DNA from: Parafrankia irregularis
GTDB lineage: Bacteria > Actinomycetota > Actinomycetes > Frankiales > Frankiaceae
Assembly: GCF_001536285.1 (NCBI RefSeq)
Contig: NZ_FAOZ01000006.1
Coordinates: forward strand, 248,001 to 312,000
Length of the DNA: 64,000 nt
Reading direction: 5' to 3'
Under the pieces are notes generated by a model. It was not told the DNA's origin. It made no database searches and was given only the letters and a program-made list of their open reading frames with translations. Positions 5,010 to 13,083 of this stretch are shown here, one piece after another. Position 1 is the stretch's first letter; each line of letters begins with the position of its first letter. Position numbers and translations under genes: made by a program.

Positions 5010-6305
5010 TCAGCGGAGGGTGTCCCCACACAGCGCCATCGGCATCTGGACCTGGAAGACGTCCGCCGCCTGCCCGACGCGCACGACGCTCACGCAGACG
5101 CGCGGGGCGTTCTTCACGGCGAGATCGACCGGACCGGGCAGCAGGCCGCCCGCGTCGTAGTCCTTCACCGCGCGCAGCGCCGCGATGTACCCGGCCCGGG
5201 TCGGGCACTGCCCGGCCTCCTGCAGGCCGCGCAGGAACAGGTCCGCGGTCAGCCAACCGACCAGGCCGGTGGTCTGCTCCGGCCGCTCGATCTGCGGCGC
5301 GTACTGGGCCATCGCGTCGAGGTAACGCTGATGCGCCGGGGTGTGCGCCTCGAACGGCAGGAAGTCGACGAGGTAGAAGCTGCCGGCCAGCCCGGTGCGG
5401 CGGCGGTCGAGGACCCCGGGGTCGTAGCCGACCGGCTGCATCGCCACCTTCACCGTCACGCCCGCGGCCCTGGCGGCGGCGACGACGTCCGCGAACGCCT
5501 GGACGGGCACGACGCCGGTGATCATGTCGGCACCGGCGGCCCGCACCCGCTCGGCCGCCGCGGCCAGGTCGAAGCCGGTGGACGTCCAGGTGATCGTGTC
5601 GACCACCTGGACCGCGTCGGCACGCAGGCTGCGCGCCAGCCGGTCCCCGATCTGCCCGGAGGCCGCGAGGGCGTCCGTACGCAGGATCACCGCCCTGGTC
5701 GCCCCGTGGGAGTGCGCGAACACGCCGAAGACCGAGTTGCCGAGGTCACCGCCGAGCATGTTGGAGTAGCCGAACACGTTCTCCCCGCCGGCCGTGAGGT
5801 CCTGGCCGATCGTGGGGACTCCGCGTTCGGCCAGGTAGTCGGCCGCCTCGCCGGCGATGCCACTGGTCCCGACGACGGCGAACGACTGGGAGCGCTCCAC
5901 GAGCGAACGCGCGGCGAGCAGCGCGCCCGCCGAGGTCGACTCGTCGTCGCGCCAGTCGTACCTGACCTGGCGGCCGTGGACGCCACCGGCGGCGTTCGCC
6001 TCGCCCAGCCTGGCGTCGACGCCGGCCCGGAACGCGCGGGAGAGCTGGGAGCTGGTTCCGGTGTCCGGGTAGAGCGCGCCGAACCGGACCTCGTCGGCGG
6101 TCACACCGGCCACCGGCGCACAGCTGGCCGCGGACACCTCGGGCGAGGTGTCGCCGGCTTCCCCGAAGCATCCGCCGATCAGGGTCGCCACCGCCGTCGC
6201 CAGTGCCAGGGCACCACCTGCGGCCCGCCACCGGCGGCCAGTCGCTGCGATCCTCAACAGTGTCCCCCGAGGCAAGAAAGGGATAGTTCGTACTTTTCCG
6301 ACCAT
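5010..6305 (-). CDS. Extracellular substrate-binding lipoprotein (type I periplasmic binding fold)
   Basis: 431 residues from the ATG at 6305. The N-terminus is basic, then a hydrophobic stretch ends in a lipobox (ATLIGGC), giving a lipoprotein signal peptide. The mature part has the branched-chain-amino-acid-binding (Peripla_BP_6) pattern: DEVRFGALYPDTGTSS, a Gly/Ala-rich helix with EANAAGGVHGRQVRYDWRDD, AVVGTSGIAGEAADYLAERG and the second-lobe motif [15 protein letters not shown]. No permease or ATPase genes adjoin it, so it may feed a distant ABC importer or act as an orphan sensor. The frame stays open upstream to 6494, but there it runs through the 15-base tandem repeat beyond the neighbour's stop, so the internal ATG is preferred. 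Confidence 0.8.
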   Translation of the reverse strand: MVGKVRTIPFLPRGTLLRIAATGRRWRAAGGALALATAVATLIGGCFGEAGDTSPEVSAASCAPVAGVTADEVRFGALYPDTGTSSQLSRAFRAGVDARLGEANAAGGVHGRQVRYDWRDDESTSAGALLAARSLVERSQSFAVVGTSGIAGEAADYLAERGVPTIGQDLTAGGENVFGYSNMLGGDLGNSVFGVFAHSHGATRAVILRTDALAASGQIGDRLARSLRADAVQVVDTITWTSTGFDLAAAAERVRAAGADMITGVVPVQAFADVVAAARAAGVTVKVAMQPVGYDPGVLDRRRTGLAGSFYLVDFLPFEAHTPAHQRYLDAMAQYAPQIERPEQTTGLVGWLTADLFLRGLQEAGQCPTRAGYIAALRAVKDYDAGGLLPGPVDLAVKNAPRVCVSVVRVGQAADVFQVQMPMALCGDTLR

Positions 6306-6370
6306 CAGGGCAAACTGGCTCGGCAACGTTACAACATCACGGACGCAGAGCCCAGCGATCGGCCGCCCCG

Positions 6371-6447
6371 CGGCCAGGCGTCCGGCGTTCAGCCGACCGG
6401 CAGTCAGACGTCCAGCGGTCAGCCGACCGGCGGTCAGCCGACCTGGC
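6371..6447. repeat. 15-base tandem repeat with in-frame stop codons at a gene end
   Basis: About five imperfect copies of a 15-base unit (CGGTCAGCCGACCGG type). On the minus strand each unit contains TGA in the frame of the methyltransferase gene: stop codons begin at complement positions 6434-6436, 6419-6421, 6404-6406 and 6389-6391, spaced exactly 15 bases. A fifth unit has TGG instead (6374-6376). The first is the actual stop codon of the gene. Confidence 0.85.
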
Positions 6448-7312
6448 CACGCCGCGGGCCGGCGGCCACGATCACCGCCATCGACGGGGCCCACCAGTAG
6501 CTGCAGTCCGCCGGCGGACGCAGGCCGTCCACCACCCGCACCGAGAACGTCTCGAAATGGCGCAGCAGCGCACGCTGGTGACGCCGGGAAAGCGAGTCGA
6601 TCTCGTTCGAGTAGTAGGTGAACGACCCTCCATCGGCCAGATGCTCGGCGGCGTGCGGGAAGAAGTGCTCGGCGAACGTCGCGTCCCGCACCACGTGGTC
6701 GTCGACCTCGCGCTCGTCCAGTGGATAGGTGTCGAACAGGATGCCGTCGAAACGCCCGAGATCCGGCAGCACGTCCTGCCAGCGGCCGGTCACTATCCGC
6801 ACGCCGGCCCGGCCACCGCCATCGCCCCCGCCCCCGCCCCCGTCACCGTCACCGTCGTCGGAGGCGGCCCACGCCCGCGCGGTCGCGGCGACGTCCGGGT
6901 TCGCCTCGATGATCGTGTGCGCCGACGGCCGCAGGCTCTGGACGAACCCGGCCGAGATTCCCAGGCCGAAGCCGACCTCGCAGACCGTCCCCCCGGTGCG
7001 GGTCACCGCCTCGGCCAGCGCCCGCATCAGGGGACGCTCCCAGGTCTGCATCACCTCCTGGCCGGAGACCAGCAGGGTGTCGCCGGTGACCACCGGCGTG
7101 TCCGCGTCGAGGGCCACCTCGATCCTCGGCCGGGTGGCGCCCGGCACCAGTCGCGGCGCGACCTCGTCGAGAGCCCGGACGTCGGCCACGAACTCGTCCA
7201 GTGCCCGCCCGAGCAGCCACTCACGAGGCTCGTCCGCCACCGGCGCCAACAGCGATTCAGACGTCGGGGTGAGACTGACCTCGAACTTCGCCGTGCGCCG
7301 CAGCAGCACCAT
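6434..7312 (-). CDS. Guanidinoacetate-N-methyltransferase-like SAM methyltransferase
   Basis: 292 residues; the ATG at 7312 follows GGGAGG. It is a class I SAM-dependent methyltransferase whose landmarks match the GAMT family rather than generic methyltransferases. These are VMQTWERPLMRALAEAV (about 88-104), motif I VCEVGFGLGISAGFVQ (110-125), the acidic strand end HTIIEANPD (132-140), and RFDGILFDTYPLDE (187-200), which resembles the ILYDTYPL signature of animal GAMT. A Gly/Asp-rich insert (about 152-170) breaks the core and is probably a disordered loop. GAMT methylates guanidinoacetate to creatine; close relatives act on arginine or other guanidines, so the exact substrate is open. No creatine or arginine genes lie nearby. 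Confidence 0.72.
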   Translation of the reverse strand: MVLLRRTAKFEVSLTPTSESLLAPVADEPREWLLGRALDEFVADVRALDEVAPRLVPGATRPRIEVALDADTPVVTGDTLLVSGQEVMQTWERPLMRALAEAVTRTGGTVCEVGFGLGISAGFVQSLRPSAHTIIEANPDVAATARAWAASDDGDGDGGGGGGDGGGRAGVRIVTGRWQDVLPDLGRFDGILFDTYPLDEREVDDHVVRDATFAEHFFPHAAEHLADGGSFTYYSNEIDSLSRRHQRALLRHFETFSVRVVDGLRPPADCSYWWAPSMAVIVAAGPRRGQVG

Positions 7313-7522
7313 GACCTCCCAGATCCGACACTGGATCGACCGGAAAACCGCCGGAACAGATGGGAAAGCCCGGCCGGGATGCACCGTATACGCGGCACAC
7401 CGCATACACGGCACACCACCGGTCCACACGGAGTCCGCATCCGATCAACATCCGGTCCGCACCCGGTCCGCGGGCAATGAACGTGGACGTCGGCTGCGCC
7501 GCAGACGGGTGTCGTAGGATCA

Positions 7523-10252
7523 ATGCGATCTGATGTGCCCAGGCAGGAGTGCGGCCCCTTGAGCGGGTATACACAACCGCCGGTGTCCGGGAACACCGCG
7601 CGGCCGCTCCGCGCGGAGGACCCCGTCCGGCTCGGTAACTATCGCGTGGTCGGCAGGCTCGGCCAGGGTGGAATGGGCGCGGTCTTTCTCGGCCAGGCGC
7701 CGGACGGCACCGCCGTCGCCATCAAGGTGATCCGGCCCGAGCTCGCGTCCCGGCCGGAGTTCCGGGCCCGTTTCGCCCGTGAAGCCGAAAGCGCCCGCAG
7801 AGTTCGCCGTTTCACCACCGCGGCGGTCCTCGACGCGGATCCGGACGGCCCACAGCCGTATCTGGTGACGGAATTCGTCGAAGGCCCCACGCTGTCACGG
7901 CATGTCACGGCACGCGGGCCGATGCGGCCGGCCGACCTCGAACAGCTCGCGGTCAGCGTCGCCACCGCGCTGTCGGCCATCCACGCCGCCGGGATCGTGC
8001 ACCGCGACCTCACGCCCGCGAACGTCCTGCTGTCCCCGGTCGGGCCGAAGGTGATCGACTTCGGGCTCGCCCGCGAGTACGACACCGTCAGTGACCTGTC
8101 CCGCAACGTCAAGCAGGCGATCGGCACCCCCGGCTACATGTCACCGGAGCAGATTCTCGACCAGCCCATCACGGCGGCGGTCGACATCTTCGCCTGGGGC
8201 TCGATCATCGTCTTCGCCGCCACCGGGCAGCCTCCGTTCGGCCAGGGGCGGGTCGAGGCCGTGCTGTACCGGATCGTGAACGAGCAGCCGCGGCTGGAGG
8301 GCGTGACCGGCGAGCTGCGCGACCTCGTCGAGCTCGCGATGCGCAAGGATCCCGGCGCCCGTCCCAGCGCCGAGGAGCTGCGCGCGGCCCTGATGGGCGG
8401 GGTGGCCATCCCGGATCGGTCGGCCCCGGCCCCGTCCTCCGCCGGCGTGGCCGGCGAAAGCGACCAGGGCGATCGCGCGCCACGCGGACGTCGCTGGTCA
8501 CGAGGCGGCCGCAAGGCCACAGAGGTCTCGACGACGGGCGCGGCGGCCGGCCCCGCTCGCCCCTCACCGGCCGACACCGTCATCTCGGCGTCGCCCCTCC
8601 CGCCCGCGCCACCGATGCCGACCTCGCCGCCCCCCGCCGCGCGGCAGCCCTACTCGCCGGCACCGCACTCGCCCGCACCACACTCCCCGGCACCGCATTC
8701 GCCGGCACCGCATTCGCCGGCACCGCATTCACAGGCGCCGCCCCACTCACCAGCACCGCAGTCGCCCTACTCCCCGGCGCCACGCCCACCGGCGACCTAC
8801 TCACCCGCGCCCTACTCACCGGCACCCCGATCGCCGGCACCACTGTCACAGACACCGCAGTCACCGGCACCGCACCCGTCCTCCCTGTCCCCTGTCACGC
8901 CGAGCAGCCCGGGCACCGCGGCGGCGCGGGGGCCACACCAGCAGGGCACGGGCCCGGACACCGGCACGGGGCGGCGCAGGCCCGATCGGCGGGTGGTCAT
9001 CGCGGGCTTCGCCGTCGTGCTCGCCGCCGCCATCGCGATCCCGGTGGCGAGGCTCGGCGGCGGTGACTCACCGTCGAGTACGGACCGCGATGCCATCGCG
9101 ACCAGGCTCGCCACCGAGGCGGCCGCCAGGCGTGCCGAGGACCCGGACCTCGCGGCCCGGCTGAGCCTCGCCGCCTACCGGATCGCTCCGGTCAGCGCCG
9201 CCAAGGACGCAATGATCGCATCGTTCAGCGCGCTGACCACGGTGCAACCACCGGAGGCCGCCAGCCCCGGCAAGGACGTCACGTTCAGCCCGTCGGACTC
9301 CGTGCTCGCCTCGGCCGGGTCGGACGGTGCGCTGCGGCTCTACCGCCTGACCGACGGCGGCGAGCCGTCGTTGCTCAGCGAGCAACCGACCAACGACCCG
9401 GCCGCCGCTGTCGCGTTCGCTCCCGACGGCAAGCGACTGGCCCTCAGCGGCACGCAGGACCCGGCCCGGGTGTGGGATGTGACCGACCCGGCCAAGCCGA
9501 CGCAGCTGAGCACGCTGTCCGGCCTGGGTACACCCGTCCAGGTGGCGCTCGGCGCGGACGGGACGCTGCTCGCCGCCGCCACCGCGGACGGCACGTTCGC
9601 GCTGTGGCGCCTCTCCGACCCCGCGGCGCCCGAGCCACCGCGCCTGCAGCGCACCGGCTCCGTCATCACCGACATGGCCCTGAACCCAGCCGGAACGCTG
9701 CTCGCGACCGCGGGAATCAGCGGGGATGTGCAGCTCTGGGACGTCACCGACCCGGCGCGCCCGAAGCAGAGCGGAGCCCTGCGCGGGCCGGTCGCCGCTG
9801 TCAACACCGTCGCCTTCAACGGCGACGGGACACGGCTGGCCGTGGGCCGGGACGACCGGACCGTCCAGGTGTGGGACGTGAGCGATCCACAGCAGGGCCA
9901 CGTCGCCACCGAGCTACGCGGGCCCGAAGGCCCCGTCTTCGCCGTCGCGTTCGACGAGGCCGGTCAGATCGTCATCGGGGACCAGTCCGGCGTCGTGAGC
10001 TACTGGGGCGGGGCGGATCCGGCGGCGGTGGTGCGGATCGCTGATGCGGAAAGCAAGATCACGTCCATTGCGATCGACCGCGCGGGTGACCACCTCGCGT
10101 TCACCACCGAAGGTGGCCGGACCTCGATCTGGTCGCTCAACCCCGACAGGCTCACCGCCGTCGCCTGCGCGAAACCGTCGGCGCGGATCACCCCGGCCGA
10201 GTGGGAACAGTTCGTCCCGGAGATCTCGTACACCGATCCCTGCAGCATCTGA
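7523..10252 (+). CDS. Membrane Ser/Thr protein kinase with WD40-like C-terminal region
   Basis: 909 residues. The kinase domain (about 38-292) is complete: GQGGMG P-loop (47-52), catalytic Lys in AIKVI (68), [11 protein letters not shown] (160-170, with Thr where most kinases have Lys), DFG (179-181) and [10 protein letters not shown] (201-210). A long Pro/Ser/Ala linker with PHSPA repeats (about 370-470) leads to one transmembrane helix (about 490-510, [16 protein letters not shown]). The outer part (about 570-890) holds seven or so WD40-like blades ([50 protein letters not shown]). It therefore looks like a receptor kinase sensing through a beta-propeller. A TTG at 7559 with GGAG upstream is a plausible alternative start, since TAGGAT (7515-7520) just before the ATG could be a -10 element. 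Confidence 0.9.
8655..8890 (+). repeat. 15-base coding minisatellite in kinase linker
   Basis: Repeats of a CCGGCACCGCATTCG-type 15-base unit, several of them identical in the middle, encode successive HSPAP / YSPAP blocks of the kinase juxtamembrane linker. The unit length is a multiple of three, so copy number can change without breaking the frame. Confidence 0.8.
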
Positions 10253-10419: not shown

Positions 10420-13083
10420 TCAGGCGGTGACCGGCGGAACGCCCTTGATCAGCTCGTCGACCTTGGCGACGTTCTCGTCGATCGTGCTCTGGGCACGCGG
10501 CACGTAGTGGGCGTCGAAGGCGATCTTCTCGCCGTTCTGCATGTAGTAGCGCATGAAGGCGGCGGCCCCGGACTCACGCAGCGAGTCCTTGCGGGCGTAG
10601 ACGAACACCGGCTTGCACAGCGGCAGGTAGAACCCGGTGCCCGCGGTCACCGCGTTCGGTTCGACGCAGCCCTTGCCGTTGTCGATCTCCAGACCGCGCA
10701 GCTGCGAACCGAACGTCTGGAAGGTCGGGAAGTCGAGGAAGCCGAGCGCGTACTGGTCGCGGGCCACGTCGGTCGCCACACCGCTGAGGTCTGCCTCCTG
10801 GTACTGGCGGGACTTGTCACTGGCGTCGTTCACCGTCGCGTTGAACACCTGTGCCTGCACGCTGTCCCGCGGCGGCCCCACAAAGCTGATCGGCTGCGCC
10901 GGGAAAGAGGAGTCGATCTGGTCCCACCGGGTGATCTGCGAGCCGGCGTTCCAGATCTCGCGGACCTGGTCGAGGGTCATGCAGCGAGCCCACGAGTTCT
11001 GCGGGTTCACCACGATCGGCAGGGTGTGGTGCGCGACCTCGAAGCCGACGATCTGGTCGGCGCAGCCGGGATTGGCCTTGGAGTCGAACTCGAAGGAGGC
11101 GTCGGCGACGTCGATCTCGCCCGCGCACAGCTTGGCGAAGCCGTCCTCGGTCGTCGACGAGCTGACATTCACCGTCACGTTCGGCTGGACCTGGCGGAAT
11201 CCCGCGTAGGCGGTCTCACTGATCGGCGCGACCTCGGCCGAACCGGCGATCAGCACCGTTTTCGGCCCCCGTGTCAGCGGTGCGGGGGACGCGCTCTGCT
11301 GCGCCGGAGGGGTCGTGACCGCCGTGGCGATCGGCACGACCGCGGTCGGCTCCTCGTCATCGCCCCCGGTCAGGGCGACACCGAACACGACGCCGGCGGT
11401 CACGAACACGATCGCCGCGACCGCGGCGGCGATCGTCCCGCCCGACCGGCCCGCGAACGGACCGCCGCCGGAACCCGAGCGACCGCCACGACCGCCACGA
11501 CCGGTGTCCGGCCGGGCGGCCTGCGGTGGCACCGGCGCGGCGCCCACGGGACGGCTCTCGCCCGCCGCGTTGACGATCTCCATTCCGCCGAGCATCGTCG
11601 CCGCGCCCTCGTCGAAGCCGGAGGAGGACGAGGAGGCGCCGGTCGCGGTCGGATACGTCATCGGGGTGCCTGGGGCCGTGCCCGCCGGCGGCGGGGACGA
11701 CACCGGGGCGCCGGTACGGCCCCCGATCACGGTGGCGTCGGGGTCAGCCGGCCGGGCCGGCGGAACCGGCCCGGCGGACGACGCGGAGCCGACCGGCGGA
11801 AGCGACCCGACCGGCGGAAGCGAGCCGACCGGTGGGAACGAGGAGACCGGGGGCACGGAACCGGCCGGCGGGAAGGAGCTCGCCGGGGGCACCGAGCCCT
11901 CGGCGGGGTAGGAGCCCGGCTGCGAGACCGACCCCCACGGAGGCACGGATCCCGGCTGCGTGCCGGCGGCCGGCGGCCGGATGATCGAGGTGATCTGCTC
12001 GCCCGGCGAGCGTTCGGCGAGCCCCGCCGCGATCAGCGCCGCCCCGGTGGCGATGTCGTCGTCCGAGCCGACCTGCCAGCGGCCGACACCGGGGAAGGCG
12101 GCACGCATCTGGGCCGCGACGAGCGGCATCCGCGCGGTTCCCCCGAACAGCAGCACGGTCGACAGGTCGGCGTGTTCCGCCTGGCCGCTGCGCAGCACCT
12201 GCCGGAATGCCCGCACCGTGTCGTCGACGACCGGTGCGACCAGGGTCTCCAGATCGGAGCGCCGCAGAGTGACCGAAGCCGTCTCCCGGCCCGGGAGGCT
12301 GACCGTTACCTCGATCTCCTCCTCCTCGGCGAGGTACTCCTTGGCCTGCGCGCACTCGTCCCGCAGCCGGCCCAGCGCGACCGCGATCGCCGGGTCGCCA
12401 AGGTCGAGCCGGTCGCGGCTGGTGCCCACCTGGGCCAGCGCCCTGTCCACCAGCAGTTCGTCGAACTCGGCCCCACCGGCGCGACCGACGCCTACCGGCG
12501 ATCCAAGCCGTTCGAATCCGAACGGGCTGAAGGACAGCACCGCCGAGTCGAAGTGGCCGGCACCGAAGTCGTAGAAGCCCACCAGGTCAACGGTCCGGGC
12601 CGCCCGGCGGCTGATCAGCAGCGTGCCGATCGCGTCGGCGGACGCGCAGGTTGTGACGGGAGCGGAGACATCCGAAAGCTGGCTGACGGCCTCGGTGAAT
12701 GCGGCGCGGCGATGCTCCGGCCAGAAGGTCGGATGCGCGACGACGATCTGCTCGGGCTCCTCGCCGCGGGCCGCGACCACCTGGCCGACCAGGTGACCGA
12801 CCAGCCGGCCGAGGAGGCCCTCGGGGCTGTAGGCCGCGCCCGCGACCAGAACGTGGCCCGGCTCGCCAACGCGGTGCAGGAAGCCGCGGGCCGCGCGCTC
12901 GGGATCCGCCGTGGCCCGTCGCGCTGCCGAACGGCCGACGAGCATGCCTCCCGCCTGGGGCATGTAGAGCACGGATGGCACCGCCCGCCCACCGCCCAGG
13001 GTGAGCACGGCGGGCCATCCCCCGTCGGAGACCGCAAGAACGGTGTTCGCCGATCCGACGTCAATGCCAAGTTGGTAGCCCAT
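10420..13083 (-). CDS. Hsp70-type ATPase fused through a membrane helix to a PstS-like binding domain
   Basis: 887 residues; the ATG follows GGAGGA. Residues 1-360 are an Hsp70/DnaK-like nucleotide-binding domain: LGIDVGSANTVLAV (phosphate 1), VAHPTFWPEHRRAAF, VGFYDFGAGHFDSAVL (phosphate 2) and VLLFGGTARMPLVAAQM (adenosine motif). No Hsp70 peptide-binding domain follows. Residues 365-545 are a Pro/Ser/Gly-rich linker with PPVGS repeats. One transmembrane helix (about 550-572) follows. Residues 605-887 resemble phosphate-binding PstS proteins: VLIAGSAEVAPI at the start, GEIDVADASFEF, VNPQNSWARCMTLDQVREIW, and the ending AAFMRYYMQNGEKI. The predicted topology is ATPase inside and binding domain outside, as in a transmembrane sensor. 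It faces the WD40 kinase gene. I know of no characterised protein with this exact role. Confidence 0.88.
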   Translation of the reverse strand: MGYQLGIDVGSANTVLAVSDGGWPAVLTLGGGRAVPSVLYMPQAGGMLVGRSAARRATADPERAARGFLHRVGEPGHVLVAGAAYSPEGLLGRLVGHLVGQVVAARGEEPEQIVVAHPTFWPEHRRAAFTEAVSQLSDVSAPVTTCASADAIGTLLISRRAARTVDLVGFYDFGAGHFDSAVLSFSPFGFERLGSPVGVGRAGGAEFDELLVDRALAQVGTSRDRLDLGDPAIAVALGRLRDECAQAKEYLAEEEEIEVTVSLPGRETASVTLRRSDLETLVAPVVDDTVRAFRQVLRSGQAEHADLSTVLLFGGTARMPLVAAQMRAAFPGVGRWQVGSDDDIATGAALIAAGLAERSPGEQITSIIRPPAAGTQPGSVPPWGSVSQPGSYPAEGSVPPASSFPPAGSVPPVSSFPPVGSLPPVGSLPPVGSASSAGPVPPARPADPDATVIGGRTGAPVSSPPPAGTAPGTPMTYPTATGASSSSSGFDEGAATMLGGMEIVNAAGESRPVGAAPVPPQAARPDTGRGGRGGRSGSGGGPFAGRSGGTIAAAVAAIVFVTAGVVFGVALTGGDDEEPTAVVPIATAVTTPPAQQSASPAPLTRGPKTVLIAGSAEVAPISETAYAGFRQVQPNVTVNVSSSTTEDGFAKLCAGEIDVADASFEFDSKANPGCADQIVGFEVAHHTLPIVVNPQNSWARCMTLDQVREIWNAGSQITRWDQIDSSFPAQPISFVGPPRDSVQAQVFNATVNDASDKSRQYQEADLSGVATDVARDQYALGFLDFPTFQTFGSQLRGLEIDNGKGCVEPNAVTAGTGFYLPLCKPVFVYARKDSLRESGAAAFMRYYMQNGEKIAFDAHYVPRAQSTIDENVAKVDELIKGVPPVTA
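11790..11900. repeat. Coding minisatellite in Hsp70-PstS linker
   Basis: Degenerate 15-base and 30-base repeats (on the plus strand GCGACCCGACCGGCGGAA-like) encode repeated PPVGS/FPPAGS pentapeptides in the linker between the ATPase and the membrane helix. The frame is kept by the multiple-of-three unit. Confidence 0.75.

Follow-up and report, generated by a model that had tools for sequence, protein, structure and literature searches.

We analyzed a 64,000-nucleotide stretch of the 9.54-Mb genome of Parafrankia irregularis (RefSeq assembly GCF_001536285.1, contig NZ_FAOZ01000006.1, positions 248,001 to 312,000), referred to below as the window, with position 1 as its first base. On the minus strand, positions 10420 to 13083 hold a gene whose product, as read from the open reading frame, Pfam and NCBIfam profiles and homologues, joins a putative pseudo-Hsp70 nucleotide-binding domain (NBD), a linker, a single membrane helix and a PstS-derived binding-protein domain. 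The gene is an unbroken frame of 887 amino acids with an ATG start, and GGAGGA stands 3 bases 5' of this ATG on the coding strand, which bears out the single open frame with a good ribosome binding site described in an earlier note on this DNA, made without database searches. Hsp70 domains are known as chaperone motors. The fused protein was found here only in the Frankiaceae, and it is most likely a receptor or adaptor of a co-inherited kinase encoded by the neighboring gene.

The NBD occupies residues 5 to 355 (12019 to 13071, minus strand), where Pfam HSP70 (PF00012) matches with an E value of 1.1e-34 over profile positions 2 to 375 of 599; since the match stops at 375, the protein is without the peptide-binding (substrate-binding) domain, as the earlier note had said. 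The top solved relative of this end by sequence is DnaK (2v7y, E 3e-25), and that of the C-terminal end is the phosphate binding protein 4jwo (E 4e-37, residues 602 to 866); Pfam PBP_like_2 (PF12849) matches residues 608 to 848 with an E value of 6e-20. Between the two ends lies a Pro/Gly/Ser-rich linker of about 195 residues, rather than the 180 first reported (residues 356 to 550; 11434 to 12018, minus strand), which by its composition and evolutionary rate is probably disordered and cytosolic. It leads into the single membrane helix (residues 551 to 569; 11377 to 11433, minus strand; hydropathy 2.58), which probably has its N side inside and its C side outside: lysine and arginine are more numerous on the N side in 29 of the 30 members that we aligned. 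Beyond residues 551 to 569, hydropathy shows no second strongly hydrophobic stretch in the fused protein, and export as a lipoprotein or through a signal peptide is not indicated. The PstS-derived extracytoplasmic domain follows at residues 607 to 887 (10423 to 11265, minus strand). Profiles, solved-structure relatives and hydropathy thus agree with the order of domains given in the earlier note, and together they support a bitopic protein of receptor-like layout, in which the binding-protein domain faces outward and the Hsp70-type NBD lies in the cytosol. A Pfam scan gave no kinase match in the same chain, the kinase being a separate gene. Measured against three homologues, the ratio of nonsynonymous to synonymous substitution rates is 0.09 to 0.22 for the NBD, 0.225 to 0.31 for the binding-protein domain and 0.22 to 0.69 for the linker, and the fused gene is under purifying selection.

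A profile built from the fused binding-protein domain (A2) was searched against 35 genomes of the order (Frankiaceae) and matched 30 of them, with a best E value of 1.2e-99 or lower in each; among good-quality genomes the figure is 26 of 27. The complete fusion stands in a single frame in 26 of the 30 family-carrying genomes. The full architecture is likewise present in the nearest named relatives, Parafrankia sp. EUN1f, P. colletiae and Frankia sp. EI5c; the fused protein of the last is identical to that of genome G300, one ground for assigning the searched genomes to Frankiaceae. The fusion is interrupted by contig ends in G302, G296 and G215, of which G302 still joins the NBD end to the binding-protein domain, and in G284 the two halves are in different frames. 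The earlier note had named two results that would speak against its architecture, profiles failing at the two ends and homologues split into two genes with a sequencing join; HSP70 and PBP_like_2 both match, the homologues do not fall into two separate genes, and the full architecture in one frame in 26 of 30 genomes also leads us to reject an assembly join as the origin of the fusion. The wider search for the same two-domain architecture across actinobacteria that the earlier note proposed found it in Frankiaceae, with none seen outside in our class and phylum samples. In the class sample (296 genomes), 59 genomes match A2. Of these, 24 belong to the 27 Frankiaceae sampled; the 35 others score clearly lower, and their frames are mostly of stand-alone size. 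All five frames at least 460 long outside Frankiaceae (L056 to L060) were inspected and have the binding-protein domain and no Hsp70 match. In the phylum sample (396 genomes), 113 match, with the fusion in the window's own genome alone, and all eight frames at least 600 long (L082 to L087, L100 and L101), also inspected, again have the binding-protein domain and no Hsp70 match; shorter frames in both samples were assessed by length only. Among plasmids, 194 records match one end of the query and none reaches 80% query coverage, and among viral contigs, A2 has no match and a further profile (A4) finds one stand-alone PstS (L090). Among the top-listed titles and abstract openings of our literature searches, which mostly lay outside subscription journals, we found no report of an Hsp70 NBD-PstS fusion.

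In a FastTree phylogeny of 30 fused and 19 stand-alone binding-protein domains, arbitrarily rooted, the fused ones form one clade with a support of 1.0. This genome and others carry a second paralogue (here L017 on contig C37) with a more eroded NBD, in which the HSP70 match covers only 255 to 377. Three further copies appear to be decaying or mis-sequenced: L070 (11925 to 14540) and L077 have the NBD and the binding-protein domain in different frames, and L053 (7038 to 8357) is shortened.

By its sequence the NBD is a pseudo-Hsp70 and not an intact ATPase. We counted residues in 30 aligned members, comprising 25 genes from 25 genomes and five paralogues, whose rows are not independent because the window protein and L001 are near-identical; P_L070 and L077 (halves in different frames), P_L053 (shortened), L074 (contig end) and L096 to L099 were left out of the counts. 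The phosphate-1 motif reads GIDVGSANT in the window protein versus GIDLGTTNS in DnaK, the phosphate-2 motif YDFGAGHFD versus FDLGGGTFD, and the positions of the catalytic Lys, E171 and T199 are taken by Leu69, Cys146 and His177. Across these members, the column of DnaK Lys70 holds Leu in 19 members, Val in 7, Pro in 2, Met in 1, Ala in 1 and Lys in none of the 30, no member has Glu or Asp in the Glu171 column (0/30), Thr199 is kept in 2 and Gly197 in none. Six comparators, two of them DnaK and four other Hsp70-family proteins (two membrane-anchored), all have the Lys, Gly197 and the Thr (6/6 each), and five have the Glu, the SEP motif being shifted by two columns in the sixth. Other parts of the site are retained: Gly196 and Pro143 in 30/30, Asp8 and Asp194 in 26/30 each, and the nucleotide-site glycines apart from Gly197 in 25 to 30 of the 30. 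In the paralogue clade, four of five members are without even Asp8, with the binding-protein domain still kept. A second, separate alignment agrees with these residue counts, and the fused protein scores 110 bits against a curated DnaK profile with a cut-off of 822. Lys70 of Hsp70 is described as bonding the gamma-phosphate and stabilizing the transition state (PMC8215388). Because the catalytic residues are lost yet the domain is under purifying selection, it appears to be maintained for something other than ordinary hydrolysis; in the main clade it probably still binds nucleotide. The earlier note's complete NBD with both phosphate motifs therefore stands as far as homology over residues 5 to 355 goes, with the motifs altered and the Lys lost, and its ATPase does not stand, the catalytic Lys and Glu being absent in 30/30 members and the Thr in 28/30.

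The binding-protein domain has likewise departed from its origin. Where 19/19 stand-alone PstS proteins carry Thr, Arg and Gly, 30/30 fused members carry Glu617, Phe or Tyr664 (Phe in the window protein) and Val742, and we take the replaced signature motifs to be the phosphate contacts of PstS. Thr743 of stand-alone PstS has become Gln, His or Pro, Asp686 has become His in 27/30 fused members, the window protein included, and His685 is invariant (30/30). The domain has four cysteines in common with most stand-alone PstS proteins, and an additional one, Cys823, is present in 30/30 fused members and 0/19 stand-alone ones. The 19 are those that were fetched and whole, from a pool of 35 matching class-sample genomes outside Frankiaceae, 112 matching phylum-sample genomes, one plasmid record and a single Frankiaceae copy of stand-alone type. 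Each was excised with a pattern requiring GTGGGF and a GS start motif in which column 617 is T, V or A. All 19 loci tried passed, but the pattern conditions columns 613 to 618 and 644 to 649; columns 664, 685, 686, 742, 743 and 823 are free of it. All five fused proteins examined fail the TIGR02136 PstS cut-off of 206.6 bits (the window protein at 145, L017 at 134.5, L078 at 143.4, L088 at 157.6 and L049 at 128.2), and four of four stand-alone controls pass at 276.5 to 290 bits. Eleven other window genes were scanned and include no pst gene and no pstCAB operon. The proposal that the domain binds phosphate or another oxyanion was thus not borne out; the acidic and His residues in place of the signature suggest that the ligand is a cation, an amine or a protein.

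Convergent with the fused gene, at positions 7523 to 10252 of the plus strand, lies the gene for a transmembrane Ser/Thr kinase with a WD40/beta-propeller in its C-terminal half (Pkinase E 3.1e-41, WD40 matches and a membrane helix), which we propose as the partner. The HRD and DFG motifs are present in 13/13 kinase orthologues checked and the Lys pattern in 12/13. A search with the propeller matched 31 of the 35 genomes at E values of 1e-40 or lower, that is, the 30 fusion carriers and G251, and G181, G292, G298 and G301 have neither fusion nor kinase. Fusion and kinase are therefore concordant in 35/35 genomes, or in 34/35 if G251 is counted as having the kinase, a co-occurrence that is new relative to the earlier note. 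A neighboring control gene, MeaB, is concordant with the fusion in 32/35, being missing in G162 and G017 and partial in G292. The pair lies within 3 kb on one contig in 26 of the 30 carriers and on separate contigs in G111, G162, G284 and G302. It is convergent in the g1 and g115 genomes, in G017 (g2) and in the g3 genomes with both genes on one contig, and tandem with the kinase first in 7/8 g4 genomes, so that it is kept between genera although order and orientation differ. In four g3 genomes the paralogue of the fusion immediately precedes the kinase and shares its strand; one of the four copies is frame-broken.

The linker carries short threonine motifs. At the NBD exit, GEQITSIIRPP surrounds Thr365 (residues 361 to 371; 11971 to 12003, minus strand), and two islands further on are candidate phospho-Thr sites: DPDATVIGG (447 to 455; 11719 to 11745, minus strand), kept in four aligned close homologues with a variable last G, and AATMLGGMEIV (494 to 504; 11572 to 11604, minus strand), kept with small changes in the same number. 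The pattern T[ASV][VIL][IL], which differs from the VLLLD-type linker sequence, can be found in 28/29 members no further than 75 residues from the NBD end, and 27 of these 28 motifs stand at the NBD exit, the position of VKDVLLLD in DnaK. A Thr followed by two of V, I, L or M is found in 22/29 cytosolic linkers, where 500 shuffles gave a mean of 4.3 and at most 10, in 10/12 divergent linkers (shuffle mean, 2.1; maximum, 6) and in 0/29 outer stalks (mean, 2.3), these shuffle tests counting related sequences as separate. A role of the linker threonines as kinase sites is plausible.

We give about an even chance to the proposal that the fused protein is a membrane receptor or adaptor with a pseudo-Hsp70 cytosolic module that works with the neighboring kinase; the protein is probably not a phosphate sensor that burns ATP but a sensor or adaptor of a kind not yet described. 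The two-lobed PstS-derived domain outside, with its differently conserved cleft, would bind a non-phosphate ligand, possibly a cation, an amine or a protein, and the ligand would shift the domain or its dimer state. The signal might then cross the membrane through the one helix and the long flexible linker to the non-hydrolyzing NBD, which would act as a docking module. One of the Thr motifs stands at the NBD exit, the expected docking place of the Hsp70 interdomain linker, and the kinase probably phosphorylates the linker threonines, which could switch docking between linker and NBD or recruit a reader protein. More tentatively, and with somewhat less than an even chance, the two proteins may form a Frankiaceae signaling pair in which the pseudo-Hsp70 receptor, with its re-specified ectodomain, gates the beta-propeller receptor kinase or is switched by it, the Hsp70 NBD being no longer a chaperone motor but a phospho-regulated part of transmembrane signaling.

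Several points weigh against this proposal. Structure predictions for the full-length protein with four sequences and for the binding-protein domain with five gave predicted local distance difference test scores of 31.8 and 39.2, too poor for use, and for this reason the grouping of the altered residues in the cleft is taken from the PstS alignment; the domain may bind a protein or nothing. The edge of the kinase over the control gene in concordance is small (35 versus 32), four of the five genomes that lack both fusion and kinase have a completeness below 90%, and few events probably account for the absences. The kinase-propeller match in G251, which has no fusion, is partial (residues 6 to 272 of 392, E 2.3e-41), and we judge it a paralogue because genomes that have the orthologue also show similar partial matches as their second hit. 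Adjacency alone is weak evidence because the surrounding block of methylmalonyl-CoA mutase (MCM), MeaB and CNNM genes is largely syntenic. As for the threonines, both patterns were chosen after the linkers had been inspected, the motif is not clearly in excess in the linkers of the kinase itself (4/13; shuffle mean 0.9, maximum 5), and it could be left over from the Hsp70 linker. Mycobacterial kinase motifs are given as Thr-X-Pro, Pro-Thr and Glu-X-X-Thr (PMC5845002). The fit is partial, since the exit motif carries Glu at -3 in Parafrankia but not in most other genera.

If the extracytoplasmic domain instead grips a cell-wall or envelope protein and cytosolic partners dock on the actin-like NBD as a structural platform, the protein would be an envelope scaffold that senses no ligand, a reading that we consider unlikely though worth taking seriously. 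The actin-like cytosolic domain of GspL/EpsL has a structural docking role in type II secretion. A degenerate actin-fold domain in a bitopic protein has a precedent in GspL/EpsL (PMC3815138), the invariant Cys823, a fifth cysteine outside, could form a covalent dimer, and the paralogues that have lost Asp8 and kept the binding-protein domain would fit such a role; the strict conservation of the altered cleft (Glu617, His685 and Val742, each in 30/30) suits a defined ligand better. There is a slim chance that the exit Thr motif is merely what is left of the Hsp70 interdomain linker and that the kinase is unrelated, its co-occurrence resulting from block-wise gain and loss. The motif does sit at the position of VKDVLLLD, a linker that affects the NBD in DnaK (PMC8215388), in a block that is largely syntenic, but the Thr persists amid variable surroundings, and comparable motifs turn up at other places in the linker. 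The pair is, moreover, on separate contigs in the four genomes named above and present in G162 and G017, where MeaB was not found, which goes against block-wise inheritance.

We hold it quite improbable that the protein is a membrane-tethered co-chaperone whose NBD acts on the cellular DnaK, through nucleotide exchange or as a decoy, at sites marked by the binding-protein domain. Ssz1, a non-canonical Hsp70, is not known to hydrolyze ATP. It is reported to partner another Hsp70 (PMC7083937), which gives this idea a parallel; however, none of ten scanned neighboring genes is dnaJ, grpE or dnaK, there is no peptide-binding domain and the co-occurrence with the kinase is left unexplained. Least probable of all, to the point where we give it very little weight, is the proposal of the earlier note, in which an ATPase switch would report phosphate or an oxyanion: homology to PstS and Hsp70 at the two ends speaks for it, but the catalytic Lys, Glu and mostly Thr are lost, the phosphate signature is replaced, the TIGR02136 cut-off that four stand-alone PstS proteins pass is failed, and the scanned window neighbors include no phosphate genes.

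If the receptor or adaptor proposal is true, an Hsp70 pseudo-enzyme maintained family-wide as the cytosolic half of a transmembrane receptor would widen the range of the fold, as pseudokinases did for kinases, and it points to a lineage-specific sensor in the Frankiaceae, which count nitrogen-fixing plant symbionts among their members. Both the ligand and the kinase partner of the fused protein are open to direct testing. Automated labels (DnaK-like, PstS) would misname both of its ends. It shares with Hsp70/DnaK the NBD homology over residues 5 to 355 and alignable motifs, and it differs in being membrane-anchored, in having no substrate-binding domain and in the lost catalytic residues. With PstS it shares an alignment over the whole domain and four cysteines, whereas it is not a lipoprotein, has no pst operon among the scanned neighbors, has the signature replaced and scores below the cut-off.

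In the GlnH-GlnX-PknG system of Corynebacterium, a Ser/Thr kinase is under the control of a binding protein together with a membrane protein (PMC9769921). The likeness lies in the combination of an outside binder, a membrane protein and a Ser/Thr kinase; GlnH-GlnX-PknG differs in consisting of three separate proteins with an aspartate/glutamate binder, and the part of that report available to us mentions no Hsp70 component (PMC9769921). GTPase-centered conflict systems of actinobacteria and firmicutes also have an HSP70 domain without a peptide-binding domain, with no membrane helix or binding-protein domain mentioned in the available part of their description (PMC7159879). Actinobacterial membrane Hsp70s are known to us from a Prescottella equi plasmid (L010, 729 to 5800), where a membrane-anchored Hsp70 NBD with intact Lys and GGGT comes directly after dynamin-family and GTPase genes, and from Nonomuraea gerenzanensis (L004, 4001 to 5389), where an NBD with intact Lys and GGGT is fused to CD225, of the interferon-induced transmembrane protein type. 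Both share with the fusion the Hsp70 NBD, a Pro-rich stretch and one or more membrane helices, and both differ from it in the intact catalytic Lys and GGGT and in having no match to the binding-protein family.

The P. irregularis genome also encodes a protein (L013:226-2472, about 117.1 to 119.3 kb on contig C9 of G000) with a Ser/Thr kinase domain, a linker, a single membrane helix and a PstS domain. This domain scores above the TIGR00975 PstS cut-off (238 versus 205 bits), and by these features the protein is likely a phosphate-sensing receptor kinase. It resembles the fusion in its linker, one helix and outer PBP_like_2 domain, giving a precedent for PstS as an ectodomain, and differs in carrying a kinase domain in place of the pseudo-Hsp70 and in passing the PstS cut-off. 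A possible relative in G190 (L094) has a kinase part that looks frame-broken. Another PBP_like_2 protein, L014:817-2361 on contig C2 of G000, has two hydrophobic stretches and an N-terminal part without identification, and matches of this type, in frames of about 500 to 590 amino acids, occur in many Frankiaceae genomes.

The scanned neighbors of the fused gene in the window are the kinase-WD40 gene, an AMP-binding enzyme, MeaB, two methylmalonyl-CoA mutase genes, TauE, TerB, Peripla_BP_6, two CNNM genes and one gene with no match. The last (6434 to 7429, minus strand), without Pfam or NCBIfam match, is found with 63 to 96% identity near fusion and kinase at many Frankiaceae loci. The Peripla_BP_6 binding protein (5010 to 6494, minus strand) lies two genes from the kinase and is in the same place in L001, L002, L003, L062, L063 and L099.

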